DNA from: an uncultured Opitutaceae bacterium
GTDB taxonomy: Bacteria; Verrucomicrobiota; Verrucomicrobiia; Opitutales; Opitutaceae
Length of the DNA stretch: 64,000 nt
Reading direction: 5' to 3'
Assembly (NCBI GenBank): GCA_937902925.1
Contig: CALFNN010000070.1
Span: forward strand, 248,001 to 312,000
Position 1 is the first letter of the stretch. Each line of letters starts with the position of its first letter. Below are positions 10,973 through 26,964 of this stretch, piece by piece. The translations under genes were made by a program, and so were the position numbers. Under the pieces are notes generated by a model. It made no database searches and was not told the origin of the DNA. It saw nothing but the letters and a program-made list of their open reading frames with translations.

Positions 10973-12199
10973 CTACGGAGCGAACGGCTTGACGATGCGG
11001 AGCGTCTCGCCCGTGTCCTCGATTTCGAACAGCAGCGGATGCGGGCCGCGGCCGTCGGGCGCGTGGAGCACCATCAGCAGTTTGCCGTCGAAGGAATTGA
11101 AGATCATCCCGTGGCCGCCGTTGTCCTGGAAGATCGGCTCCGGCTCCTGGCGCCACGGGCCGGCGAGTTTGCCGGAATCGGAGATCGCGACGCCGAGCAC
11201 GTAGCCGTGCGCGTGATTCCGACTCGACCAGATCATGTAGAGTTTGCCCCTCTTGCCCATGTGCAGATAAGGGCCGTCGGTCACCCAGCCACCCTCGCCC
11301 GCCGGCTCGCTCCACTTCGCGGAGGCGGCAGCGAACAGACGCTTCGGTTCGCCGGCGGCCTCGGACAGGTCGTCCTTGAGCGGCATCGCCTCGATCGTGC
11401 CGTTGGTGATCTGCACCCACTCGTGCGCGAACACCATGTAGGGCACGCCGTCCTCGACCCAGAGCGTGCCGTCGAGGGTCATCATGTCGACGGGAGTCGT
11501 GGCGTGGTTCTGAAATGGCTGGAAAGGTCCCCGCGGCGAATCGCCAACGAGCACCTGCGAACCGCGCGTCACGCGCGGCCGCCACTGCCGCCATTGTTCG
11601 CCAAGGAGGTGCTGGGTGTTGAACGTGAGAAAGAGATAATACTTCCCCTTGTAGCGGTGCATTTCCGGCGCCCAGATGCCGGCCGTGCGAATGTCGCCCC
11701 AGATGTCCGGCGGCGTGCGGAAGATCGCCTTCGGTCCCTGCCAGTTCACAAGGTCGGGGCTCGTCCACTCGCGCACGCCATTGAAGCCGGACGCGATCAT
11801 GTAATACGTCTTCGTGGCGGCATCGGGGAGAATGCAGACGTCCTGCGCGCGGATGGTGTCGAGTTTCGAAATCGCGTCCGAGTCCTCCATACCGCGGCCC
11901 CGGCCGCGGGTGGGTGCGGCGGGTGTGCCGTTGGAAGGCGGAGTCGCGGTCGACTCAGGGGGCACTGTGGATTGTCCTTGAGCGAGAGTGGCTGACTCAG
12001 AGAAAAAACTCGCCACCAGAAGCGCCAACCAAAGTCGGGCTCCGTGGGTGGGGCCGCTTCTCCGAAGCGGCCTGGGTTCCGAGTTGCGAATTACCCCGCA
12101 ACTCAAGCCGGCTCGCCCGTTCGACGAGCTCAGGGTCCCGAGCCTGTCGAGGAAGAGAGCCGGCTCCCCCACGGACCGCGTTTCATCGGAGGCACTCAT
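10973..12199 (-). CDS. GH43 glycosidase with repeat-derived N-terminal extension
   Basis: The 408-residue frame starts at ATG 12199, five bases after the GH51 stop. Residues about 11-52 are encoded by REP-like repeat DNA (12047-12171). A normal signal peptide (ARLWLALLVASFF, about residues 54-74) only begins after that. The mature part is a GH43 propeller: Asp120 in AQDVCILPD, APEMHRYKGKYYLF, Asp243 in TLDGTLW, and VTDGPYLHM, where Asp308 takes the place usually held by the acid Glu. Such TDGP variants occur in part of GH43, so activity is not excluded. No ATG exists between the repeat and the signal peptide; a TTG there could be the true start. It belongs to the arabinan/galactan operon. Confidence 0.85.
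   Translation of the reverse strand: MSASDETRSVGEPALFLDRLGTLSSSNGRAGLSCGVIRNSEPRPLRRSGPTHGARLWLALLVASFFSESATLAQGQSTVPPESTATPPSNGTPAAPTRGRGRGMEDSDAISKLDTIRAQDVCILPDAATKTYYMIASGFNGVREWTSPDLVNWQGPKAIFRTPPDIWGDIRTAGIWAPEMHRYKGKYYLFLTFNTQHLLGEQWRQWRPRVTRGSQVLVGDSPRGPFQPFQNHATTPVDMMTLDGTLWVEDGVPYMVFAHEWVQITNGTIEAMPLKDDLSEAAGEPKRLFAAASAKWSEPAGEGGWVTDGPYLHMGKRGKLYMIWSSRNHAHGYVLGVAISDSGKLAGPWRQEPEPIFQDNGGHGMIFNSFDGKLLMVLHAPDGRGPHPLLFEIEDTGETLRIVKPFAP
12047..12171. repeat. Composite REP-like element in the 5' end of a GH43 gene
   Basis: Two hairpin modules lie side by side. Module 1 (12047-12078) is GGTGGGGCC, then GCTTC/GAAGC arms, then TGGGTT, the same design as 1657-1688. Module 2 (about 12106-12171) has GCCGGCTC arms around CTCAGGGTCCCGAGCCTGTC, and is the reverse complement of the inside of the element at 32584-32654. 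It is translated in frame as part of the GH43 N-terminus. Confidence 0.85.
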
Positions 12200-12204
12200 G
12201 GCGC

Positions 12205-13758
12205 TCACAATTCCAACACGACCACCGATTTCGCCGGCAGCGTGACGCGCAGGTTTCCGCCCGCGAGCGTTGCGCCGTCGAACGCCTGCGGCGCGACCGT
12301 GTCGGGCGCGGCGAAGGTGTTCACGCTGTTGATCGCCGGCGCCGTCAGAACACGGCCGCTCACCGCGGTAGCGGACACGCCCTCGAGCTTGCACTCGACC
12401 GCGATCGGGCGGTTCGGGTCGGCGTTGGTGAACGACACGTGGATTTTTCCGGCGGCGTTGCGCGAGGCGGAGGCGCTGACCGCGGGAATCTTTTCGCCGC
12501 CAACCGCGTAGTCGGGCGACGTAAGCGAAATCGGCAGCGACTTCGCGCCCTGGTGGACGTTGAGCATCTCGAAGACGTGATAGGTCGGCGTGAGCAGGAT
12601 CTTTTCCTTGTCGGTCAGGATCATCGACTGGAGCACGTTGATCATCTGCGCGATGTTGGCCATCGTCACGCGGTCGGCATGCGCCTGAAAGATGTGCAGG
12701 TTGATCGCCGCGAGGATCGCGTCGCGCAGCGAGTTTTGCTGGTAGAGGAAGCCGGGATTCGTGCCGGGCTCGACATCGGTCCAGACGCCCCACTCGTCCA
12801 CCACGAGGCCGACGCGTTTTTGCGGGTCGTATTTGTCCATGATCGCCGAGTGCTTCGTGACGAGCTCCTCCATCTTGAGCGTGTTGCGCAGCGTCGCAAA
12901 ATACTCCGGCTCGCCGAATTTCGTCGCGCTGCCCTTGGGCCCGCGCCAGCTCCCACTCGGCAGCGTGTAGTTGTGGAGCGCGAGGCCGTTCATCCGGCCG
13001 CCGTTTTTCATCAGCGTCTCGGTCCACTCGTAGTTGCCGCCATCCGGGCCGCACGCGATCCGGTTGATCGGGTTCTCGCGGTCGTAGTTTTTGACGAACG
13101 TGTTGTAGCGCCGGAAATTGTCCGCGTAGAACTGCGGCGTCATGTTGCCGCCGCAGCCCCAGCTCTCGTTGCCGATCGCGAGGTAGCGGATCTTCCAGGG
13201 CTTGTCCCGGCCGTTCTTGCGGCGGAGGTTCGCCATCGGCGAGTCGGCGTCGGAGGTCATGTATTCGACCCACTCCATCGCCTCCTGCACGGTGCCACTG
13301 CCGACGTTGAGGCAGATGTAGGGCTCGGCGCCGATCTGCTCGCAGAAATCGAGAAACTCGTGCGTGCCGAAATGATTGTTCTCCACCACGCCGCCCCAGT
13401 GCGTGTTGATCATCGCCGGCCGCGACTCGCGCGGACCGATGCCATCGCGCCAGTGATACTCGTCGGCGAAGCAGCCGCCCGGCCAGCGCACCTGCGGGAC
13501 CTTGAGTTTCTTCAACGCCGCGACGACGTCGCTGCGGATGCCGCGAACGTTGGGGATCGGCGAGTCGGGCTCGACCCAGATGCCCTCGTAGATGCAGCGG
13601 CCGAGATGCTCGGTGAACTGGCCGTAGATGTTCGGGTTGATGACCGCGCCGGGCCGGCTGGCGTCGATGGTCAATTGCGCCACGGCGTCGGCCGGGCGCG
13701 CCAGCGGCGCGAACGCGGCCACGGCCGCCAGGAGGGAGAGCGTGCGGAGGGAGTGCAT
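12205..13758 (-). CDS. GH51 alpha-L-arabinofuranosidase, secreted
   Basis: The 517-residue enzyme removes alpha-L-arabinofuranosyl groups from arabinan and arabinogalactan. A Sec signal occupies about residues 1-28. Family markers run in order: [50 protein letters not shown] with acid/base Glu198, then LVVDEWGVW with nucleophile Glu322, and the C-terminal beta-sandwich ending VVVLEL. ATG at 13758 gives the best signal peptide; a longer open frame continues upstream but lacks features. It is first in the eight-gene run, so the operon promoter should lie in 13759-14026, a stretch that also holds a large inverted repeat. Confidence 0.95.
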
Positions 13759-13915
13759 GGGGCGAAACGGGGTTGATCTCTCGGACACGGGAAGCGTCAG
13801 GCGTGAACTTTGCCGACTCAACACCAACCGCGGCATGACGCGCACTGCTTTTCTGCCAGACAGTCCGCTGGAGATCGAGCGATGCGATCGAGAGATTCGC
13901 CCATGAGATTTGTAT

Positions 13916-13992
13916 TTTGTAGGGCGGGGTCGCCGAACCCCGCCATGCTTGCTCAGCTCTAACGGCGGGGTTCGGCGACCCCGCCCTACAAA
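13916..13992. repeat. GC-rich inverted repeat (BIME-like)
   Basis: Arms 13916-13944 and 13964-13992 are 29-base perfect complements around a 19-base loop (TTTGTAGGGCGGGGTC... and ...GACCCCGCCCTACAAA). Each arm is itself partly palindromic (GCGGGGT/ACCCCGC), as in paired REP sequences. It lies between the GH51 start and the stop of the next gene on the same strand, so it could also end transcription from upstream. Confidence 0.85.
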
Positions 13993-14026
13993 TTCAGCGC
14001 CCGGACCGCGGCAGGTTTGCGATCTC

Positions 14027-15769
14027 TCAATCTTTCGGTGCGGCCACCGCCGCACCCAGCGCCGCTGGGAGCAGCCGCGCGAATTGCGCCCGGGTCGCTT
14101 CGTCGGGCGCGATCCGCATTCCAAGCTCCACGAGGGTGGCGGTCTCCGGCGCGAAACCGTTTTGCGCGAAAAGCTCGGCGGCCTCGTAGACGAGTTCCAC
14201 CCGCCGCGGAAAGAGCCGCACCCCCTCGTCGATCACCGCCAGATGCCCGCGCGCCGGACGGACGGCACAGTGCAGCCAGACGGCGGCAATGAGCTCGTAG
14301 ACCTCGCCGAGGGGCGGCCGCTCCGAGCGGGCCTTGAACAGCGGCGTCAGCACGTCGGCCGCCTGCGCGATGCTGAGTTTGCCATCCGGACCCTCCGGAT
14401 GCGCGCGATGGTCGGCAAACCGGAGCCGCGCGACTTCATACCACGCCCGCGGGCGGACCACGCCGCCCGCCGCGGCGGCCTCGAGATACCCGCGCGCGCC
14501 GGCGTCGTCGCCGGCATCGACTTCACACAGGCCGAGCACGGCCTGCAGGCCCGGGTCGCGCTCGCCATCGTTGTAAGCGTGCATCAGCGTATGCCGCGCC
14601 TGTTCGAGGTATTTCGGCACCACTTCCGGGATCTTGTTCCGGACGAAGCCGATCTCGAGCCGTTCCCAATCGCCCTTGATCCGGTCGATCTCCTCCTCGC
14701 GGGCGTCGTGCAACAGCAGCGCCGGCGGTTTCGCCGACTCCGCCAGGTGCAACCGCAGCGATTTCCGCGCCGCGACCGGCAGATAAGCGGTCAACTGTTC
14801 CTGGATCGCGGCGAAGTCCGCGCCAAAGCATTCTTGAAACAGGGCATCGGAGGTTCCCGCGGCGCTGGAACGCTCGACCCATTTCCACAGCGCCTCGTGC
14901 CGGGCCGGGTCGCTGCCATCGAGCGCCCAGCGCACGAACATCGTCGCCTCCGAGGTCCAGAGCCGCAACCGCGCCCCGGCCTCCTCATCGCGGCCGGGGA
15001 CCGCACCGGTCAGGAGGTCGCGCAACGGCAGTGCCGCAGTCGCCGTCTTGGGATCCTTCTTGAGCGCCGCGGTCGCGTCGTCCGAGACCCAGGTTGCGGC
15101 GGGCAGGATCAGTTCGTCGCCACGAAACTCCACGCGCGCATGCAGGCTCAGGATCGCGTTGACGAACCACGCGGGCAGCGCCGGGACGCGATTCCGCAGC
15201 AGGTAGGCGACGTAGTCGGACGTGAGCGCCATCTGGTCGAAGTTGGTGTCGCCCGGCTCCACGATGGCAAAGACCGCCATGGCATCCGTGTCCCAGAGCC
15301 GCAGGTTGGGCATGAAACTATAGCGCCGCTGCGCCGGCTGAAACCGAATGCCACGCGCCCCCAGGGGAAACGAATCCGCGGGCGGCGCCGCGTCCTTCGG
15401 TTGCCGGCTCAACATATCCGCGATCACTTCCTGCGACGCCGCCGGCTGCAGCGAGGCATCGTAAAAAATCAGCTTCTTCGGGACGGAAAACCCGACCTGC
15501 AGCGATTCCGGCAGCATCAACGCCAGCAACCGGTGCAGCCGGTAGTGGGCGGCGGCCAGTTCGCGCGTCATCTGGTCGTTGCAGCGCGACAGGATTTCGA
15601 AGCCGGGGATTTCCGCGTAACGCCACGGCGGACCCTTCGTCGCTTCCTCGACGATGAACGGCGGCAGCGCCACAACGCCCTCGGCCGCCCGCGCCACGAC
15701 GGCGAACGCCAGCGCCAGCAGCAGGACGCTGGCGAGAAGGCGGTGGGAAAGGCGGTGGAAATTCACCAT
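14027..15769 (-). CDS. Secreted protein with degenerate gluzincin-like motif and helical repeats (paralogue 1)
   Basis: The 580-residue protein has a Sec signal (residues 1-29). The opening [10 protein letters not shown], the middle segment and the TPR-like C-terminal half are shared with the 592-residue protein at 42409-44187. Residues 184-190 (SDYVAYL) and 199-205 (PAWFVNA) align with places where peptidase MA-like/DUF1570 proteins carry HExxH and WFxEGLA. Here both His residues and the Glu ligand are absent, so zinc peptidase activity is not expected. Residues about 370-560 look like helical repeats. Function unknown; a periplasmic scaffold or binding role is conceivable. It is divergent from the DUF1080 gene. 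Confidence 0.88.
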
Positions 15770-15904
15770 GGGGCGCGGGTTCGGATGGTGCGACGGTAAC
15801 TAGGCCGAGGAGTTCCAATGTCGAACGAAACCATGACCGCCCGCCGCACTTCTCGCGGTGAAATCCTCGCCAATCCCGGCGGCGCTGCCCATCATGGTGC
15901 CCGC

Positions 15905-16558
15905 ATGAACCCAAAGCTCCCCACCCTGCTCGCTCCGCTCCTTGCGCTGGTCGCCCTCGCGTCCGTCCGCCCCGCCGTCGCCGCCGACACCGGCCGCGTC
16001 GCACTCTGGAACGGGAAGGATATTGCCGGCTGGAGCGTCTTTCTCGGCGACGCGACGGTCGACCGGCAAAGTGTGTGGCGCGTGAGCGACGGCGTGCTGC
16101 ATCTCGCCACCAAGGCGAGCGGCTATCTCAAGACAGAAAAGACCTATGCGAACTACCACCTGCACGTCGAATGGCGGTGGCCGAAGGACGCGCCCGTCAA
16201 TACCAACAGCGGCGTGCTCGTGCACCTCAATGGCGAGGACAAGGTCTGGCCCGCGTGCTTCGAGTGCCAGTTGAAGCACGGCAACGCCGGCCAGGTTGTC
16301 GGCATGGGCCTCGATATTCCCGCCGCCCCGATGGACAACAACCGCAAGCGCGCGCCGAAATTCGCCGCCTCGTCCGAGAAGCCGCTCAACGAATGGAATA
16401 CCTACGAGATCTATTGCCGGGGTGACACGATCGAGGTTTTCATCAACGGCGTGCGCCAGAACTTCGTGGAAAAATTGCCCGTGGGCGCCGGCAACGTCGC
16501 GCTGCAGATGGAGGGCTTCCCGATCGATTTCCGCAACGTGTGGCTGGAGCCGCTGTGA
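15905..16558 (+). CDS. DUF1080 family protein (3-keto-disaccharide hydrolase family), secreted
   Basis: The 217-residue protein starts at ATG 15905, which places a clean signal peptide (LLAPLLALVALASV) at the N-terminus; an upstream in-frame ATG at 15818 would put 29 unlikely residues before it. The mature part is one concanavalin-like jelly roll of the DUF1080 type: LWNGKDIAGWSVF, GYLKTEKTYANYHLHVEWRW, NSGVLVHL, CFECQLKHGNAGQVVGMG, WNTYEIYCRGDTIEVFING and DFRNVWLEPL. Members of this family hydrolyse or eliminate 3-keto-glycosides. The two Gfo/Idh/MocA oxidoreductases nearby could supply the 3-keto sugars; that link is inference. It is the only plus-strand gene in the first 24 kb. Confidence 0.92.
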   Translation: MNPKLPTLLAPLLALVALASVRPAVAADTGRVALWNGKDIAGWSVFLGDATVDRQSVWRVSDGVLHLATKASGYLKTEKTYANYHLHVEWRWPKDAPVNTNSGVLVHLNGEDKVWPACFECQLKHGNAGQVVGMGLDIPAAPMDNNRKRAPKFAASSEKPLNEWNTYEIYCRGDTIEVFINGVRQNFVEKLPVGAGNVALQMEGFPIDFRNVWLEPL

Positions 16559-18488: not shown

Positions 18489-18597
18489 GGTCGAGGCCGG
18501 CCTCCGGTCGATCCGGGGCCGCAGGGATTGACGCCGGCTCGCGCGGCAGGTTGCGGTAAATCCCGCCGACCGAAAAGGCCCGGCCTCCCGCGGGCGC

Positions 18598-20154
18598 TCA
18601 GACCAGCCGGGGCACGACGAACGGCGCGCGGTATTCGCGCGTGAGCAGCGCATTGGCCGCAGCGGCGCCCTCGCCGGTAAACCGTCCCGCTTGCGCATCG
18701 AGCGTGACGGGCAGCCCCAGCGTCGCCGGCGTCTTGGCGAGATCGAGGCCGTTGCTCGCGAGGTGCTCCGCCATCCGGCCAAAGCCCTCCGCCAGCGCGG
18801 CGTCGCCCTTGATCCGCTCGCGCACCTCGCCCGCCGGCGCGGCGCGACCGAGTTCGTAGGAAATGTTGGTGGTGTGACAGAGCCCGGTCGACACGTAGCC
18901 CTCGTGGATTGGCGCGTGCAGGTCCGAAGTTTTCCGACTGCGCACCGCCGCGACGAAATTCGCGTAGTGGCTGCTGACGCCTGTGAACTCCTGCACGACC
19001 TTGCCGTCGCGGTCGCACGCATGCGCCCCGGAATAATCCGTCGCGGGCACGACGACGTAGCCGCCCTCGCATTCGATCACGTTGCCGATGCCGACGCCGC
19101 GATATTGATCCATGCCGCCTGCCAATCCGCGACCACCGCCGCCGCGCCCGCCCGCTCCACGCGTGCCGCCGGCGCCCGCGGTTCCGACCGGACCGCTGCC
19201 GCCCGCGCCGCCCTCGGCCGCCGGCGTCCCATGCGCAGGCAAACCGCGCACTTCGCAGATGAGCGGCGCCGCGGCGTAATCGTGCACCGCGATCAGCGTG
19301 TTCGGCGTCTCGCCATCGTCGACGTAGCCGAGCCGGCCGCCGATCGTGAACACCCGCGGCGCGAACGCCGGCTCGCCGAGAAACCGCCGCGCGATGTCGA
19401 TCTGGTGCGCGCCCTGGTTGCCGATGTCGCCGTTGCCCGTCGCCCACTGCCAGTGCCAGTCGTAGTGCAAGCGCGCCCGCCGCAACGGCGTGAGCGGCGC
19501 GGGGCCGAGCCACAGGTCGTAGTTGACCGTCGCCGGCACGGCTTGCGGCCCGGAGGTCAGCCCGATGCTCGGCCGCCGTTTGTAACACAGCATCCGCGCT
19601 GCGGTGATTCGACCGACATGACCGGCGCGCACCCATGCAATCGCCCCGGCAATCGCCTCGCTGGACCGGCTCTGTGTGCCGGCTTGGACGATCCGGTGGT
19701 ATTTCGTCGCGGCCGCCACGAGTTGCGCTCCCTCCCAGAGGTTGTGCGAAACCGGTTTCTCGACGTAGACATCCTTGCCCGCCTGCATCGCCCAGATCGC
19801 CTGCAAGGCATGTTGGTGGTTCGGCGTGGCGATGGACACGGCGTCGACCTCGGGGCTTGCGAACAACTCGCGGGCATCAGCGTAGGTCTTCACGTCGGCC
19901 TTCGCCTCGCGGGCGGTCTGCGCCGCGCGCTCGAGCACCGCCGAGTCGACATCGCAAAGCGCCACGATCCGCACGCCGGGCACCGCGCTGAAGAAACGGA
20001 AATGATCGCGGCCCTTGCCGTTGAGGCCGACGATGCCGATGCGGATGTCGCCATTGGCCCCGGCGACCTGCGACCAGGCGCGCGCCGACAACGCGGCGCC
20101 GGCGGTGGCGAGCGCGGCGGTCTTGATGAAATGGCGGCGGGTGAAGGAGCTCAT
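18598..20154 (-). CDS. Tat-exported Gfo/Idh/MocA family oxidoreductase, copy A
   Basis: The 518-residue protein is an NAD(P)-dependent sugar oxidoreductase type. A twin-arginine signal (SFTRRHFIKTAALATAGAA) directs folded export, consistent with a pre-bound cofactor. The Rossmann domain begins IRIGIVGLNGKG. The EKP signature is at residues 132-134, followed by YDWHWQWATGNGDIGNQG and the C-terminal alpha/beta domain. Residues about 309-347 are a glycine/arginine-rich insertion absent from copy B. Gene order with the DUF6807 protein (32 bp upstream) repeats immediately at 21197-23700. Members of this family oxidise sugar hydroxyls, including C3; the actual substrate is unknown. Confidence 0.93.
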   Translation of the reverse strand: MSSFTRRHFIKTAALATAGAALSARAWSQVAGANGDIRIGIVGLNGKGRDHFRFFSAVPGVRIVALCDVDSAVLERAAQTAREAKADVKTYADARELFASPEVDAVSIATPNHQHALQAIWAMQAGKDVYVEKPVSHNLWEGAQLVAAATKYHRIVQAGTQSRSSEAIAGAIAWVRAGHVGRITAARMLCYKRRPSIGLTSGPQAVPATVNYDLWLGPAPLTPLRRARLHYDWHWQWATGNGDIGNQGAHQIDIARRFLGEPAFAPRVFTIGGRLGYVDDGETPNTLIAVHDYAAAPLICEVRGLPAHGTPAAEGGAGGSGPVGTAGAGGTRGAGGRGGGGRGLAGGMDQYRGVGIGNVIECEGGYVVVPATDYSGAHACDRDGKVVQEFTGVSSHYANFVAAVRSRKTSDLHAPIHEGYVSTGLCHTTNISYELGRAAPAGEVRERIKGDAALAEGFGRMAEHLASNGLDLAKTPATLGLPVTLDAQAGRFTGEGAAAANALLTREYRAPFVVPRLV

Positions 20155-20186
20155 GGGGTGATGGGGTGGCCGGGGATTCCCGCCGG

Positions 20187-21146
20187 TTATTTTCCGGCCG
20201 CGTAGTCCTGGTAACGCGCCGCGACCTCCGCCGCGGCGGTGTCGTCCTCGTGGAAAAAGAAGCGATAGCGGAAAGTCGCGCTGCCGCCCGCCGGAATCGT
20301 GAAGTCGCCGGAGTGCTCCGGCTCCTTCGCGTCGAAATCATGTGCGCCAAACGGCCCCGCGGCGAACAAACCGTAGCCGCGCACCATCCAGCGTGTCGGG
20401 TGCCGCGGGTTCGCCGGGTGATTGAACATCGCCACGCCGAGCACCTTTCCGTCGTGCGGCGCGTAGAAATCGCACCAGTCGCCGGCCTTGCCCCAGGTCG
20501 CGTTGTCTTTCAGCCCCGTCGACAGCACGATACGCCCCGCCCCGGGAGTCGCCCCCTTCGCGGCACCCGGACCCGGCAGCGTCATCCACGGCGCCACGCG
20601 CAGGGCCATCGTCCCCTCCTTGGAATCGCCAAACGTCAGCGGCGCATCCGGCAAGGCGTGCAGCGTGATATCGTAGTCGAGCATCCGGCCCGCCGCCACC
20701 GGTTGCACACGCACCATCACTTCGTCGGTGCAGACGAGCTTGCCGTCGGCGGCGACCCAGCGGTCGCGGGTGCGGAGCGTGCCGACCGCGCCGCTCGTCG
20801 TCTCCGGGACGCCGTCTGGCACGATCCGTCCGGTCCCGGCGATCTCGCGCCAGAAATCGTGTCCGTTGACCGCCCCATGGCCGAACCACAGCGAGTGGTG
20901 ATGCAGATGGTCCGCCGGCCGGTCCTGGGTCATGACCGTGCCGTCGCCAGCGAGGATCGGATCGAAGTAAGGCCGCGGCGCGGCGGCCAGCAGGTATTCC
21001 GAAAAAAGTTTGCCGCCGATTTCGATGCGCACGCGGTCGGCGAGCGGCATGAGTTTCACGGCGGCCGCGGGCTCGGTGCCGTGTGACACGGAGCCGAGTG
21101 CGGCGAAGGCAGCCGCTACCAGCGGGACGAACCAACGGGGTTTCAT
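20187..21146 (-). CDS. Secreted DUF6807 ('PmoA family') protein, copy A
   Basis: The 319-residue protein has a signal peptide and a beta-sandwich region typical of DUF6807. It contains DHLHHHSLWFGHGAVNG, TTSGAVGTLRTRDRWV, LDYDITLHALPDAPLTFGDSKEGTMALRVAPWM, WCDFYAP and FNHPANPRHPTRWMVRGYGLFA. Database names such as 'methane oxygenase PmoA' are misleading: nothing here resembles the membrane monooxygenase subunit. The His-rich and acidic conserved positions would suit sugar binding or catalysis. It is paired with Gfo/Idh/MocA copy A and both are exported, suggesting consecutive steps or a shared substrate in the periplasm (inference). Confidence 0.9.
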   Translation of the reverse strand: MKPRWFVPLVAAAFAALGSVSHGTEPAAAVKLMPLADRVRIEIGGKLFSEYLLAAAPRPYFDPILAGDGTVMTQDRPADHLHHHSLWFGHGAVNGHDFWREIAGTGRIVPDGVPETTSGAVGTLRTRDRWVAADGKLVCTDEVMVRVQPVAAGRMLDYDITLHALPDAPLTFGDSKEGTMALRVAPWMTLPGPGAAKGATPGAGRIVLSTGLKDNATWGKAGDWCDFYAPHDGKVLGVAMFNHPANPRHPTRWMVRGYGLFAAGPFGAHDFDAKEPEHSGDFTIPAGGSATFRYRFFFHEDDTAAAEVAARYQDYAAGK

Positions 21147-21196
21147 GGGGTATCGCGGTTGTGGGGTGCGGGACCGCCGGGCCCGGCGCTCGCGGC

Positions 21197-22654
21197 TTAC
21201 GCGAGCTGGGGCACGACGAAAGGCTTCCGGTAATCGCGGGTGAGGAGGGCGTTCGCCGCGTGCGCTCCCTCGCCGGTGAACCGCTCCTTCGCGGGATCGA
21301 GCGCGAGCGGCACGCCGAGCGTTGCGGGCGTCTTGACCAGGTCGACGCCGTATTTTGTGAGGTGCTCGGCCATCCGGCCGTAGGCCTCGGCCATGGTCGC
21401 GTTCCCCTTGATCTTTTCGCGGGTTTCATCGGGTGGCGCGGTGTGGCCGAGGAGGTGGGAAATGTTGCCCACGTGGCAGAGCGCGCTTGAGACGTGCCCT
21501 TCCTCGATCGGACCGTAGAGCTCCGCGGTTTTCCGGCTGCGGACCACGTCGATGAAGTTCTGCATGTGGCGGTCGACCCCCTTGAACTCCTTCAAGACCT
21601 TGCCGTCGCGGTCGAAGGCCGTCGCCGCGAAGTAAGTCGAGGTCGAAACATAGCCGCCCTCGCAGTCCACGACGTTGCCAATGGAGACGCCGCGGTATTT
21701 GTCCATGCCCGGCGCACCGGGCTTCATCGTCAGGCCGCGCACCTCGAAGATGAGCGGGGCGGTCGCGTAGTCGTTGACGATGACCTGCGTGTTCGGTGTC
21801 TCGCCGTCGTCGTCATAACCGAGCCGGCCGCCGACGCTCAGCGTGTGCCGCGGCAGCCCCGCCTCGCCGAGGAACCAGCGTGCGACGTCCATCTGGTGGA
21901 TGCCCTGGTTGCCGATGTCGCCGTTGCCATAGATGTTGATCCAGTGCCAGTCGTAGTGGATCGGGCCGTGCTCCGGCGAATTGCGATGGGGCGGAACCAG
22001 CGGCGCCGGTCCGGTCCAGACATCGTAATCGACCGACGGCGGCACCGGCGTCGGCCCGGTGGTTTTGCCGATGCTGTTGCGCTGCTTGTAACAGAACCCG
22101 CGCGAGGCGGTGATCTTCCCGATATTGCCCGCCCGCACCCACGCCACAGCCTCCTGCATCGCCTCGCCCGAGCGGATCTGCGTGCCGGCTTGGACGACGC
22201 GGTTGTATTTTGCCGCCGCCGTCACGAGCTGCCGGCCTTCCCACACGTTGTGCGAGACGGGCTTTTCCACGTAAACATCCTTGCCCGCCTGCATCGCCCA
22301 GATGCCGGCCAGCGAGTGCCAATGGTTCGGCGTGGCGATGGTGACGGCATCGATGTCGGGCGACGCGAACACTTCGCGCGGGTCCGTATAGGTCTTTACG
22401 TTGCCGCCATTGACGCCGGGCTTCGTGCGCTCGAGCACCGCTGTATCGGGATCGCAAATCGCGACCACCCGGGCGCCGGCGACTTTCGACAGGCTGGTCA
22501 GGTGGTTTTTGCCGCGGCCGTTGAGGCCGAGCACGGCGACACGGATGTCGCCGTTGGCGCCCATGACCTGGGACCAGGAGCGCGCGGAAAACGCGACCGC
22601 GGCGCCGGCGATGGTGGTGGTGCGGATGAAAGTGCGGCGGGTGAGTTGATTCAT
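21197..22654 (-). CDS. Tat-exported Gfo/Idh/MocA family oxidoreductase, copy B
   Basis: The 485-residue protein begins with a twin-arginine signal (LTRRTFIRTTTIAGAAVAF), then a Rossmann domain (IRVAVLGLNGRGKNH), the VEKPVSHNVWEGRQLV signature, and HYDWHWINIYGNGDIGNQG. By eye it aligns with copy A over its whole length, except that the glycine-rich insertion of copy A is replaced here by a short MKPGAPG linker. This copy is therefore likely to show the ancestral architecture. It starts 17 bp after the DUF6807 copy B stop. Substrate unknown; a periplasmic glycoside or cyclitol oxidation is inferred from the family. Confidence 0.94.
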   Translation of the reverse strand: MNQLTRRTFIRTTTIAGAAVAFSARSWSQVMGANGDIRVAVLGLNGRGKNHLTSLSKVAGARVVAICDPDTAVLERTKPGVNGGNVKTYTDPREVFASPDIDAVTIATPNHWHSLAGIWAMQAGKDVYVEKPVSHNVWEGRQLVTAAAKYNRVVQAGTQIRSGEAMQEAVAWVRAGNIGKITASRGFCYKQRNSIGKTTGPTPVPPSVDYDVWTGPAPLVPPHRNSPEHGPIHYDWHWINIYGNGDIGNQGIHQMDVARWFLGEAGLPRHTLSVGGRLGYDDDGETPNTQVIVNDYATAPLIFEVRGLTMKPGAPGMDKYRGVSIGNVVDCEGGYVSTSTYFAATAFDRDGKVLKEFKGVDRHMQNFIDVVRSRKTAELYGPIEEGHVSSALCHVGNISHLLGHTAPPDETREKIKGNATMAEAYGRMAEHLTKYGVDLVKTPATLGVPLALDPAKERFTGEGAHAANALLTRDYRKPFVVPQLA

Positions 22655-22671
22655 GGGGCGAGGGGGTTGGA

Positions 22672-23700
22672 TTATTTTCCGACGGCGTAGTCGGCGTAGT
22701 TCTCGGCCACGTGGGCGGCCTTTTCGTCGCCCAGATGGAAAAAGAAACGGTAGCGCAGCGTCAGGCTGCCGCCGGCGGGAATCGTATAGTCGCCGAGGTG
22801 CGGCTCGGCGGGCTTCTTTTCGAAATCGTGCGCGCCAAACGGATTGGCCCCAAAGAGTCCGTAGTCGCGCGCCATCCAGTAGGTGGGGTGACGGAAATTC
22901 TGGGGATGATCGAAGATCGCGATGCCGTAGGTCTTCCCCTCGTGCTCGGCGTGGTAGTCGCACCAATCGGAGCGCGTGCCCCACGCATCGCCGTCGCGGA
23001 CACCCGTGGCGGTGACGATATGCCCCGTGCCGCCCGCCTCCTTTTTCACGGTCTTGCCCGCGGCGTCCCTCGCGTTGATCAAATGCTGCATCGTCATCCA
23101 TTGCGCGACGCGCGTGGCCATCGTGCCGTCCTTGTTGTCGCCCATCAGCAGCGGCTGATCGGGCAGCGCATGCAGCGTGATCTCGAAATCGATGAACCGG
23201 CCGGTGTCGTTCGCATGAAACCGCACCGTGCGTTCGTCGGTGCACATCAGCTTTCCTTCCGGCGACAGCCAGCGATCGCGCGCGTGGATCGTGCCCACGG
23301 CGCCGCTCGTCGCCTCCAGGTCGCCGTCCACCACGGTGTGCCCCTTGAATTGCGACGACTTGCCGACGTCGCCGCCCGCCTCGTTCCAAAAATCGACGCC
23401 ATTGACGGCACTGTGGGCGAACCAGAACGATTTCTGCCACGGATGGTCGGTTTCCTCGCCCTCGACCTTCTTCATCGGAAAATTCCGGGTGAGCGGCATG
23501 CCGTCGGGCGCGAGGATCGGATAACAATACGATCGCGACGCGCCATCGCCGAAGACGTAGTCGGTGAACGGCTGGCCGCCGATCTCGACCTGCACGCGGT
23601 CAGCGAGCTTGGTGAGTTTGACGTCGTTGGCGGCGTGGAGCGGGGTAAGTGCCGCGGCAGCGCACGCGAGCACGAGGGGTTTTAAGACACGTGTCGTCAT
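22672..23700 (-). CDS. Secreted DUF6807 ('PmoA family') protein, copy B
   Basis: The 342-residue protein starts at ATG 23700, just ahead of a signal peptide (VLKPLVLACAAAALTPLHA). It shares with copy A the blocks FWFAHSAVNGVDFWNE, ATSGAVGTIHARDRW, TLHALPDQPLLMGDNKDGTMATRVAQWM, WCDYHAEHEGKTYGIAIFDHP and IPAGGSLTLRYRFFFH. It is the first gene of the four-gene duplicated cassette, so the promoter should be in 23701-23816. An upstream in-frame start exists, but it adds basic residues ahead of the signal peptide. Confidence 0.92.
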   Translation of the reverse strand: MTTRVLKPLVLACAAAALTPLHAANDVKLTKLADRVQVEIGGQPFTDYVFGDGASRSYCYPILAPDGMPLTRNFPMKKVEGEETDHPWQKSFWFAHSAVNGVDFWNEAGGDVGKSSQFKGHTVVDGDLEATSGAVGTIHARDRWLSPEGKLMCTDERTVRFHANDTGRFIDFEITLHALPDQPLLMGDNKDGTMATRVAQWMTMQHLINARDAAGKTVKKEAGGTGHIVTATGVRDGDAWGTRSDWCDYHAEHEGKTYGIAIFDHPQNFRHPTYWMARDYGLFGANPFGAHDFEKKPAEPHLGDYTIPAGGSLTLRYRFFFHLGDEKAAHVAENYADYAVGK

Positions 23701-23816
23701 CGCCGCCCACACGAGCCTTTTCCGCGGCGCGCGGCAACCGCAAATGCAGTTTCGCCAAAAATTCCCTCCGCGGTGGACGGGCGCGCCCGCGCCCCGCAAT
23801 TATCCAACTCGGCCCT

Positions 23817-24573: not shown

Positions 24574-24593
24574 ATTCCGCGGGAGGGCGGAAT
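24574..24593. promoter_or_regulatory. Dyad between divergent DUF1223 and GT41-like genes
   Basis: A 7-bp perfect dyad (ATTCCGC...GCGGAAT, 6-base spacer) lies 28 bp from the DUF1223 start and 70 bp from the GT41-like start. Its placement would suit an operator controlling both genes, but there is no further support. Confidence 0.3.
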
Positions 24594-24663
24594 GCTTTGG
24601 TATCCTGCCAGCGAAGTTCGGGGTGGAAAGTGCCGTCGATTCCGTTTTGGTGACGCTTCCGAA

Positions 24664-26964
24664 ATGGCCAACGCTAACCTTGGTGAGATTTTGCAGCGTG
24701 CGATCGAGCATCACGAGGCGGGCCGCCTGGCGCAGGCGGAGGCGCTTTACCGCGAAGCTCTGGCGTGCGATCCGCGTTGCGCGGATGCACTGCATCTACT
24801 TGGAGTGGCCGCCGGGCAGGCGGGCCGGCACGAGCTCGCGGCGCAGCTGATTCGCCAGGCATTGGTGCTGACGCCGCGGCGGGCCCTGTTTCATGCGAAT
24901 CTCGGTGAAACCTACCGCGGCCAAGAACGCTACGAAGATGCGATGACGAGCCTCCGGCAAGCCCTCGCGCTGCAACCAAACTTTCCCGCCGCACTGATAA
25001 GTCTCGGTGCGGTCTTGGCTGCCCAAGCCTGCAACGACGAGGCGCTGGCCTGTTTTCGACAGGCGCTCCAACTCGAGCCAAACAATGCAACCACTCTCCA
25101 GAAACTTGCCGAGCACCTTGGTCAACTCCGGCAGTTTGAGGAAGCCGACGCCTGTTTCCAAAGAGCGCTGGCGCTCCAGCCTAACTCCGCCGAGCTCCAT
25201 GACGGCCTCGGAAATGTTTACAAAGAGCGAGGGCAGAATGATCTGGCGATCGCTCGCTATCAACAGGCCATTGCGCTCCGGCCAGATTTCACGGAAGCCT
25301 ACAACAATCTCGGCAACAGCCTGCGCGCCCAAAATCGGATGGCAGAAGCCATCGCCGTCTACCGGCAGGCGATCGCGCTAAATCCCGGGATCGCCGAAAT
25401 TCACTATAATCTCGGCGTCGCCTTAACTGAACAAAACCAACTCGACGAAGCCCTCGCCTGCTGCCAGCGCGCCCTCGCACTCAAGCCCAACCTAGCCGAT
25501 GCCCATAGCGCCCTGGGCGTCGTCTTTAAGGAGCGCGGCCAGCTCGATGAAGCTCTCGCCTCCTGTCAGCGCGCACTCACGTTCAAACCGGACCTGACGG
25601 AGGCTCATATCAACCTTGGCGTCATTTATAAAGAGCGAGGCCAGCTCGATGAAGCCCTCTCCTCCTACCGCCGGGCGATCGGCTTCAAGAACGTTTCCGC
25701 CGCGTGGCACAGCAACCTCATCCTGGCGCTGCATTATCGTTCCGGGAACGATGCCGTCCTGATTGATTCCGAACTTCAACGCTGGAGCCACCGGCACGCC
25801 CAACGGCTCACAGTCGTCCCACGCCATCCCAATGCTCCCGACCCGGATCGCCGCCTGCGCATCGGCTATCTGTCGCCCGATTTCCGCGCCCATCCGGTGG
25901 GCCGGTTCCTGCAGCCTCTCTTCACCCATCACTCCCGTGAATCGGTCGAGATCTTCTGCTATTCCAACACACACCCCTCCGACCACCTGACGGACTGGTT
26001 CCGTTCCTCCGCCGATGGTTGGCGCGCGATCTCCGCGCTGTCGGATCAACAGGCCGCAGACTTGATCCGGGAAGATCGCGTCGACCTCTTGGTTGACTTG
26101 GGCCTGCATACCGCGAGGAGCCGTCTCCCGATTCTCGCTTTCAAACCCGCCCCAGTGCAGGCGACCTATCTCGCCTATCCGGGAAGCTCCGGGCTGGACA
26201 CGGTCGACTTCCGCATCACCGACGCCTACCTCGATCCATTGGATCATGCCGATCCGCGCGGCAATGAGCGCCCCGCCCGACTGCATGGGACTTATTGGTG
26301 CTACCAACCCACCGCCGGGGCCGCGGTTGAGGCCGGTCCACCGCCGGCGCTGACCGCTGGGCGGATCACCTTTGGCTGCTTCAATAACTTCTGCAAGGCA
26401 ACCCCCGAAGCCCTCGCAGCTTGGTCTCGCGTCCTTCAGGCCGCGCCGGATGCGCGGTTGCGCTTGCACGTCCGGCCCGGCAGCCACCGGTCCCTCGTCC
26501 TCGATTTTTTCGCTAGCCAAGCCGTCGACCCCGGGCGGATCGATTTCCTGGGCTTTGTCCCGGAGACGGAATATTTCCAAGCCTATCGATCTATCGACAT
26601 CGCGCTCGACCCGTTTCCGTTTCCTGGCGGCACCACGACTTGCGATGCGCTCTGGATGGGTGTGCCGGTCATCAGTCTCGCAGGATCTACCCCCGTGAGT
26701 CGCGGCGGTCTGTCGCTCCTGTCGCACGTGGGGCTGGCAGAATTGGTCGCCCTTTCCGTCGACGCCTACGTCGAAAAGGCCATCAGTCTCGCGCAGGATC
26801 TAGGCCGCCTCGTGGCGATCCGCGCCGGTTTGCGCGAGCGCGTGCGACTTTCGCCGCTGATGGACGGCGCGCGCTTTGCCCGCGATATGGAGAATGCCTA
26901 TCGCGCCATGTGGCATTGGTGGTGCGCCCGGCAGACTGCACCACCCGCCTCATCCGAATACTGA
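24664..26964 (+). CDS. TPR-rich GT41-like (O-GlcNAc transferase/SPINDLY type) glycosyltransferase
   Basis: The 766-residue cytoplasmic protein has about ten 34-residue TPR units (residues about 1-365) and then the GT41 catalytic region. That region contains LRIGYLSPDFRAHPVGRFL (about 397), LVDLGLHTARSRL, APVQATYLAYPGSSGLDTVDFRITD (about 508), FGCFNNFCKATPEAL and PFPGGTTTCDALWMGVPVI (about 655). These are the sugar-nucleotide binding blocks of OGT-like enzymes, so it probably adds a sugar to Ser/Thr of target proteins. ATG 24664 starts at the first TPR helix; an earlier in-frame ATG at 24592 adds a featureless segment. Codon use is visibly less GC3-biased (caa, aat, tta, gaa codons) than in neighbours, which hints at transfer. 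The target protein is unknown. Confidence 0.9.
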   Translation: MANANLGEILQRAIEHHEAGRLAQAEALYREALACDPRCADALHLLGVAAGQAGRHELAAQLIRQALVLTPRRALFHANLGETYRGQERYEDAMTSLRQALALQPNFPAALISLGAVLAAQACNDEALACFRQALQLEPNNATTLQKLAEHLGQLRQFEEADACFQRALALQPNSAELHDGLGNVYKERGQNDLAIARYQQAIALRPDFTEAYNNLGNSLRAQNRMAEAIAVYRQAIALNPGIAEIHYNLGVALTEQNQLDEALACCQRALALKPNLADAHSALGVVFKERGQLDEALASCQRALTFKPDLTEAHINLGVIYKERGQLDEALSSYRRAIGFKNVSAAWHSNLILALHYRSGNDAVLIDSELQRWSHRHAQRLTVVPRHPNAPDPDRRLRIGYLSPDFRAHPVGRFLQPLFTHHSRESVEIFCYSNTHPSDHLTDWFRSSADGWRAISALSDQQAADLIREDRVDLLVDLGLHTARSRLPILAFKPAPVQATYLAYPGSSGLDTVDFRITDAYLDPLDHADPRGNERPARLHGTYWCYQPTAGAAVEAGPPPALTAGRITFGCFNNFCKATPEALAAWSRVLQAAPDARLRLHVRPGSHRSLVLDFFASQAVDPGRIDFLGFVPETEYFQAYRSIDIALDPFPFPGGTTTCDALWMGVPVISLAGSTPVSRGGLSLLSHVGLAELVALSVDAYVEKAISLAQDLGRLVAIRAGLRERVRLSPLMDGARFARDMENAYRAMWHWWCARQTAPPASSEY

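Follow-up and report, generated by a model that had tools for sequence, protein, structure and literature searches.

Redox-assisted cleavage of glycosides is already known. In the Agrobacterium tumefaciens oxidation-elimination-hydration-reduction operon, as set out in the available sections of its description, a Gfo oxidoreductase is encoded together with two 'sugar phosphate isomerases', one of them a TIM-barrel β-eliminase and the other a probable hydratase (PMC10628242). Here we analyse a locus in which members of an uncharacterised protein family, DUF6807, stand beside oxidoreductases of the Gfo/Idh/MocA type. The locus lies in a 64,000-nucleotide stretch of DNA from an uncultured Opitutaceae bacterium (the window; contig CALFNN010000070.1, positions 248,001 to 312,000), where two DUF6807 genes alternate with two oxidoreductase genes in what we call the cassette.

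Pfam lists DUF6807 (PF14100) as a family of unknown function, and the passages found by a full-text literature search for DUF6807 and PF14100, including the PmoA names, gave no function for it. Two papers call PF14100 methane oxygenase or PmoA, and the accessible part of PMC10291797 took it as a PmoA methane marker.

Pairing of DUF6807 with Tat-type oxidoreductases

The four genes run head-to-tail on the minus strand (23700-18598) in the order DUF6807, oxidoreductase, DUF6807, oxidoreductase, separated by intergenic gaps of 17, 50 and 32 bp. This ABAB order on one strand, which the preliminary description of this DNA had reported, was confirmed by the coordinates of the open reading frames (ORFs) and by Pfam matches. 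Both DUF6807 proteins pass the curated cut-off of PF14100 (229.6 and 229.7 bits versus 27), and both oxidoreductases pass those of the Rossmann domain PF01408 (77.4 and 83.2 bits versus 24) and of the C-terminal domain PF19051 (47.5 and 47.1 bits versus 23.3). For the first DUF6807 copy we took the ATG start given in Table 1; the listed TTG at 23799 probably makes the protein too long. The source genome (95% complete, 105 contigs) contains two PF14100 matches, both in this cassette.

To place the cassette in context we used three sets of DUF6807 loci. The first, of 90 loci, comprises all DUF6807 places listed for the phylum except the two of the window and three rows that are fragments (G025:C48 and two of G043:C10), and was not selected by likeness to the window. 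The second, of 80 named loci, holds the best 80 of at least 588 relatives of the window lineage, from Verrucomicrobiota, Planctomycetota, Sumerlaeota and Armatimonadota together with a small number of records whose titles name no phylum; it overlaps in part with the first set and contains identical rows (L058/L174 and L090/L222). A further 20 loci were hand-picked from the family match list.

Of the 80 named loci, 40 have an oxidoreductase directly downstream of DUF6807, on the same strand and no more than 600 bp away; two others are too short to tell. Oxidoreductase midpoints were concentrated within 2.5 kb of DUF6807 compared with distances of 4.5-7.5 kb: 31 in 428 kb versus 8 in 433 kb for the 90 loci, 46 in 355 kb versus 3 in 296 kb for the 80, and 15 in 95 kb versus 1 in 76 kb for the hand-picked 20. 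We preferred this within-locus control because the alternative, 30 arbitrary 17-kb stretches of nine genomes scored with hidden Markov models (two oxidoreductases, one DUF1080), was small. Across 43 genomes, PF01408 occurs about once per 126 kb and DUF1080 about once per 400 kb (genome sizes rounded, and PF01408 counts a lower bound in four genomes, with 78 candidates scored); the source genome holds 28 PF01408 and 14 DUF1080 matches. When neighbouring genes were clustered over 94 window-lineage records (13 + 80 + the window), after dropping ORFs shorter than 150 amino acids or overlapping known genes, every other cluster was found in at most 8 records, versus about half for the oxidoreductase. 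The pairing of DUF6807 with Gfo/Idh/MocA enzymes is real and recurs in many related bacteria; the association across genomes, named at the outset as the finding whose absence would count against the idea, is present. Sampled genomes with PF14100 numbered at least 140 of 200 in the window's family and 27 of 145 across the phylum, and a match is also present in the Caulobacter vibrioides genome.

Export signals fit what had been described, with twin-arginine translocation (Tat) signals on the oxidoreductases and Sec-type signals on the DUF6807 proteins. Both oxidoreductases exceed the TIGR01409 (Tat) cut-off of 16.7, with scores of 20.5 for the first and 20.7 for the second; the Pfam TAT_signal model matched the second alone, below its cut-off. 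The Sec-type hydrophobic leaders of both DUF6807 proteins were judged by eye. A regular expression found the twin-arginine motif in 47 of 53 related oxidoreductases. Of the six that it missed, three (L084, L188 and L216) carry RR-x-FF and one (L225) a single arginine; for L185 and L240 the 60 residues available do not allow the motif to be judged. In an alignment of 73 oxidoreductase rows the signal Arg-Arg is at least 90% conserved. The Tat motif of the oxidoreductases is thus retained in relatives, and a shared periplasmic location of all four proteins is predicted here from signal motifs.

Predicted folds and fused TIM barrels

A profile of ten related oxidoreductases, compared with solved structures, matched 8tdf best (E 9.1e-36), followed by 8tdh and DgpA (7xr9), the match covering the N-terminal half only. 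The AlphaFold2 model of oxidoreductase 2 aligned with 8tdf, the Alistipes glucoside-3-dehydrogenase AL3, at Z 38.0 (root-mean-square deviation (rmsd) 2.9, 385 residues aligned), with 8tdh at Z 37.8, and with DgpA1 at Z 34.8 over 327 residues. Foldseek placed AL3 and the glucuronide-3-dehydrogenase P2B11 in the first ranks. Z values of 31-34 were reached by many further Gfo/Idh/MocA enzymes, so that the fold ranking is a pointer rather than proof. With solved glycoside-3-dehydrogenases as their nearest relatives in sequence and predicted fold, the cassette enzymes are candidates for the oxidation that had been suggested. The EKP lysine (K133) and the active-site histidine (H250), catalytic residues in this enzyme family, do not vary across the 73 aligned rows.

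Prediction of the DUF6807 structure, proposed earlier as a check, gave a confident model for copy 2 (Table 1), with a galactose-mutarotase-like supersandwich over most of the protein. The model aligned with part of the PL26 exo-rhamnogalacturonan lyase (5xqg, Z 18.7, rmsd 6.1, 255 residues; 5xqj, Z 18.5, rmsd 3.1, 239 residues) and with GalM (4bze, Z 17.6, rmsd 3.5, 232 residues), many rows being tied. Foldseek E-values were weak (best 1.1e-4, in a list that includes YidC and β-galactosidases), and we therefore claim only the broad fold. In the PDB, phmmer found 0 sequence matches to DUF6807 at E up to 1; profile matches to fluorescent proteins (E ≥0.38) were set aside as chance. Given the predicted carbohydrate-enzyme-like fold, counts of methane genes based on PF14100, of the kind described in the accessible part of PMC10291797, may mislead.

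Among 87 diverse DUF6807 sequences, the best-conserved positions besides Gly and Pro include R183 (99%), W99 (97%), W224 (92%), N246 (91%), H80 (89%), H83 (86%) and D79 (79%), a set with the look of a binding or active site. At the H83 position, which is His in 86% of those family rows that have a residue there, Gln is found in DUF6807 copy 1 and in its L060 relative, and function may differ between the paralogs.

Eleven of the 80 named loci, every one from Planctomycetota, have an open frame that joins an N-terminal AP_endonuc_2 TIM barrel of the sugar-isomerase type to DUF6807, an architecture confirmed by Pfam in the three that were submitted. The enzymes of the OGE and C-glycoside operons presumably belong to the same Pfam TIM-barrel group as AP_endonuc_2. 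Ten of the eleven fused barrels were aligned: all carry a twin-arginine motif, and E202-x-H204, N230, H257 and E287 are invariant. The only PDB match of their profile was 4ovx, a xylose isomerase domain protein (E 1.2e-5), with E-x-H in the same register. An oxidoreductase follows the fusion in ten of the eleven loci, the eleventh (L189) ending too early. Eight of the fusions have an additional TIM-barrel match after DUF6807, which is confirmed by Pfam in L187, weak in L195 (32 bits), and located within the open frame of the oxidoreductase in L213.

A different architecture was seen in two cases that we checked (L079:5094-8861 and L089:7857-12047), where one large ORF joins DUF6807 to DUF7133, HEAT and cytochrome c domains. 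These fusions suggest that other lineages link DUF6807 to periplasmic oxidation based on haem. Their architecture looks like that of Lac161_ORF7, a β-galactosidase reported from a cosmid of verrucomicrobial origin and encoded in a putative operon together with a PF14100 gene, as given in the available sections of PMC5342196.

A candidate 3-keto-sugar route and its competitors

A periplasmic 3-keto-sugar route is plausible for the cassette. Our tentative reading, to which we give slightly less than an even chance, is that it encodes an exported two-protein 3-keto-sugar module, in which the Tat oxidoreductase oxidises C3 and the secreted DUF6807 protein acts on the oxidised intermediate as a lyase or hydratase. 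The oxidoreductase, with its own bound nicotinamide cofactor, would work in the periplasm, where it would oxidise a sugar or glycoside at C3 and probably also re-reduce the final keto-sugar, so that the cofactor is recycled without free NAD. DUF6807 would act between both redox steps, either taking the aglycone off a 3-keto-glycoside (lyase) or adding water to the 2-hydroxy-3-keto-glycal that results (hydratase). Where a putative TIM-barrel β-eliminase is fused ahead of it, as in Planctomycetota, a hydration or anomer-handling step would be likelier. Gene order, pairing, fusions, predicted folds and Tat motifs come from computation; the substrate, the 3-keto chemistry, the retention of the cofactor and the DUF6807 step are what we infer. 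The oxidise-then-cleave route of the preliminary description keeps the gene association, the likeness to C3-dehydrogenases and the Tat motifs in its favour, and loses its DUF1080 element.

Several observations weigh against the two-protein module. The BT_2158 equivalog model (NF058561) scores far below its cut-off of 750 for both oxidoreductases (120.8 bits, E 5.7e-35, for the first and 135.8 bits, E 1.6e-39, for the second), which makes them relatives, not members, of that group. A same-strand oxidoreductase within 400 bp was found in only 21 of the 90 phylum-wide loci (including 7 of the 13 most window-like), and 38 of the 80 named loci had no such gene downstream; DUF6807 therefore also works in other settings. 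The supersandwich fold by itself shows no function. The window showed no AP_endonuc_2 TIM barrel; 13 matches lie elsewhere in the genome, 12 of them over the cut-off. In the available sections of the A. tumefaciens work, a flavoenzyme carries out the initial oxidation, with the closing reduction assigned to the Gfo enzyme, and AtOGE has as its metal and base residues His132 (replaced by Glu in the C-glycoside enzymes), His134, Asp163, His189 and Glu233 (PMC10628242). These were matched by eye to the invariant residues of the fused TIM barrels, where the β6 metal ligand Asp of AtOGE seems to correspond to Asn230. Finally, one metagenomic DUF6807 occurs beside directly active β-galactosidases, without need for a keto step, in the operon described in the available part of PMC5342196. 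As for the relatives themselves, deletion of BT2157 or BT2158 left growth on raffinose-family sugars unimpaired, so that they are not essential for these sugars, according to the accessible sections of PMC11501099.

The competitor that survives best, though we think it unlikely, makes the Tat oxidoreductase a self-contained, cofactor-retaining enzyme (a GFOR-like sugar dismutase or an NAD-dependent glycosidase), with DUF6807 as a mutarotase or sugar-binding helper that supplies the right anomer. GFOR (1rye and 1h6d, Z 33.0 and 32.9) and the NAD-dependent glycosidase 8qc8 (Z 32.4) are indeed close in fold to the oxidoreductase model, the DUF6807 model resembles GalM, and the window has no AP_endonuc_2 gene. 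AL3, however, scores 5.0 to 5.6 Z units higher than GFOR and 8qc8, with 385 versus 323-329 residues aligned, and DUF6807 occurs fused to a TIM barrel.

Rather unlikely, in our estimate, is that DUF6807 is an ordinary carbohydrate-active enzyme, a lyase or hydrolase acting on intact glycans, for which the oxidoreductase is one context among several. Its neighbours include an α-L-rhamnosidase-type protein in L063, a GH28/DUF1080 protein in L061 and sulfatases at the DUF6807 loci L136 and L174, and its top structural row, tied with others, is the PL26 rhamnogalacturonan lyase. A PF14100 protein also lies in a putative operon with two β-galactosidases, although the available sections of that study report no assay of it (PMC5342196). 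Against this explanation stands the neighbour clustering, in which the oxidoreductase far exceeded every other partner.

That the nearby DUF1080 gene provides the cleavage enzyme of the same pathway, with DUF6807 adding a further step, is improbable: the gene matches PF06439 and DUF1080 adjoins DUF6807 in rare cases (L061, L107, L204 and L246), but it is read from the strand opposite to the cassette, 2.0 kb past the last gene there, two minus-strand ORFs that match no Pfam family intervene, it is one of 14 DUF1080 matches in the genome, and DUF1080 shows no enrichment near DUF6807 relative to the more distant interval (5 versus 5, 2 versus 1 and 0 versus 0 in the 90, 80 and 20 loci). Precedent for such a role comes from BT2157, for which 3-keto-disaccharide hydrolase activity was shown, and from Caulobacter CCNA_01705, for which it was proposed (available sections of PMC9007349). 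On the near and far counts we reject DUF1080 as a conserved partner of DUF6807, and the part in the route that it had been given is not supported. Elsewhere in the source genome (contig C55, L281:5424-7801), an AP_endonuc_2 match has a DUF1080 match next to it in the same orientation, and this pair is a candidate of the more classical 3-keto-glycoside kind.

More broadly, DUF6807 might be a new 3-keto-sugar enzyme family, a mutarotase-fold lyase or hydratase in the place that DUF1080 or the DgpB-type small subunit has in other bacteria. Verrucomicrobiota and Planctomycetota would then have an oxidise-eliminate-hydrate-reduce route for glycosides that runs entirely in the periplasm; we regard this wider proposal as doubtful. 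Tying DUF6807 to exported sugar C3-dehydrogenases and to β-eliminase-like TIM barrels gives a common family a specific, testable biochemical role, and, if true, part of redox-assisted glycoside cleavage would sit outside the cytoplasm.

Paralogous modules and comparison with described systems

The cassette had been described as a tandem duplication, and its two copies do align in register as DNA, at an offset of about 2.5 kb, with the six longest paired blocks (130-300 bases) 71-78% identical. A recent duplication was nevertheless rejected by approximately unbiased (AU) tests, in which the copies were not each other's closest relatives: sisterhood was rejected for the oxidoreductases in a quick tree (p-AU 0.0047) and for the DUF6807 proteins in a careful one (p-AU 3.8e-5). 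Oxidoreductase 2 groups with the second oxidoreductase of L060 (SH-aLRT branch support 96, and 98 once L277 was added), and oxidoreductase 1 with related enzymes that are found singly. DUF6807 copy 2 forms a deep lone branch, and the closest sequences to copy 1 by tree path are the DUF6807 proteins of G204, G180 and G017. Relatives show other orders (with A for DUF6807 and B for the oxidoreductase, A-B-B' in L060 and L277 and A-A''-B in L278), which indicates that old paralogs have been combined in different ways. As judged from these trees, the operon carries the same two-protein module twice, in versions that are old paralogs. The order A-B-A'-B' was seen in the window alone among the 190 locus records screened (90 + 80 + 20), many of which end early at contig ends and some of which represent the same place; for the family this covers records taken from among the matches listed, and rarity there is not proved. 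On a Gemmatirosa kalamazoonensis plasmid (NZ_CP007130.1, 104211-105140), two pieces have 76% DNA identity to about one third of the cassette.

Table 1. Features of the cassette and its surroundings (positions in the window; pLDDT, predicted local distance difference test)
Feature	Position	Strand	Evidence
DUF6807 copy 1 (A)	22672..23700	-	PF14100 E 7.2e-68; Sec-type N-terminus MTTRVLKPLVLACAAAALTPLHA; ATG at 23700
Gfo/Idh/MocA oxidoreductase 1 (B)	21197..22654	-	PF01408 E 1.9e-21; N-terminus MNQLTRRTFIR (Tat)
DUF6807 copy 2 (A')	20187..21146	-	PF14100 E 6.4e-68; Sec-type N-terminus; model pLDDT 93.9
Gfo/Idh/MocA oxidoreductase 2 (B')	18598..20154	-	PF01408 E 3e-23; N-terminus MSSFTRRHFIK (Tat); model pLDDT 89.2
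Terminator-like hairpin and T-rich tail	18578..18595	-	directly 3' of last cassette gene (B'); weak
DUF1080 (3keto-disac_hyd) gene	15818..16558	+	PF06439 E 3.2e-35; probably outside cassette

Terminator-like sites numbered 9 in the 7.6 kb scanned, compared with 6.9 (standard deviation 3.0) in shuffled sequences, which lends the hairpin in Table 1 weak support. A GH43 gene and an α-L-arabinofuranosidase gene lie 4-8 kb past the cassette on the minus strand (10973-12100 and 12205-14124), and on the plus strand (24592-26964) is a gene for a TPR protein whose glycosyltransferase domain is of family 41 (O-GlcNAc transferase-like).

Among described systems, the best sequence and predicted-fold matches of the oxidoreductase are AL3 (8tdf and 8tdh) and the BT_2158-type glycoside 3-dehydrogenases; it differs from AL3 in sharing only 23% identity with it and in its partnership with DUF6807. 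DUF6807 likewise resembles GalM (4bze) and the PL26 lyase (5xqg) in predicted fold, at identities of 9% and 10%. DUF1080 hydrolases, as in the Caulobacter lactose pathway, are partners of sugar C3 oxidation too (available sections of PMC9007349), whereas they belong to a different Pfam family (PF06439) from DUF6807 and are not enriched around it. At L204, a TIM barrel-DUF1080 frame stands between DUF6807 and the oxidoreductase, paralleling the TIM barrel-DUF6807 frame. The Agrobacterium OGE and PUE-strain DgpABC C-glycoside operons, as presented in the available sections of PMC10628242, set a Gfo oxidoreductase beside a TIM-barrel β-eliminase and a probable hydratase, and the Planctomycetota DUF6807 clusters are built alike, with an oxidoreductase and one or two AP_endonuc_2 TIM barrels. 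What distinguishes the systems described here from those operons are the Tat signals and the DUF6807 domain and, in the window, a cassette that stands without an AP_endonuc_2 gene.

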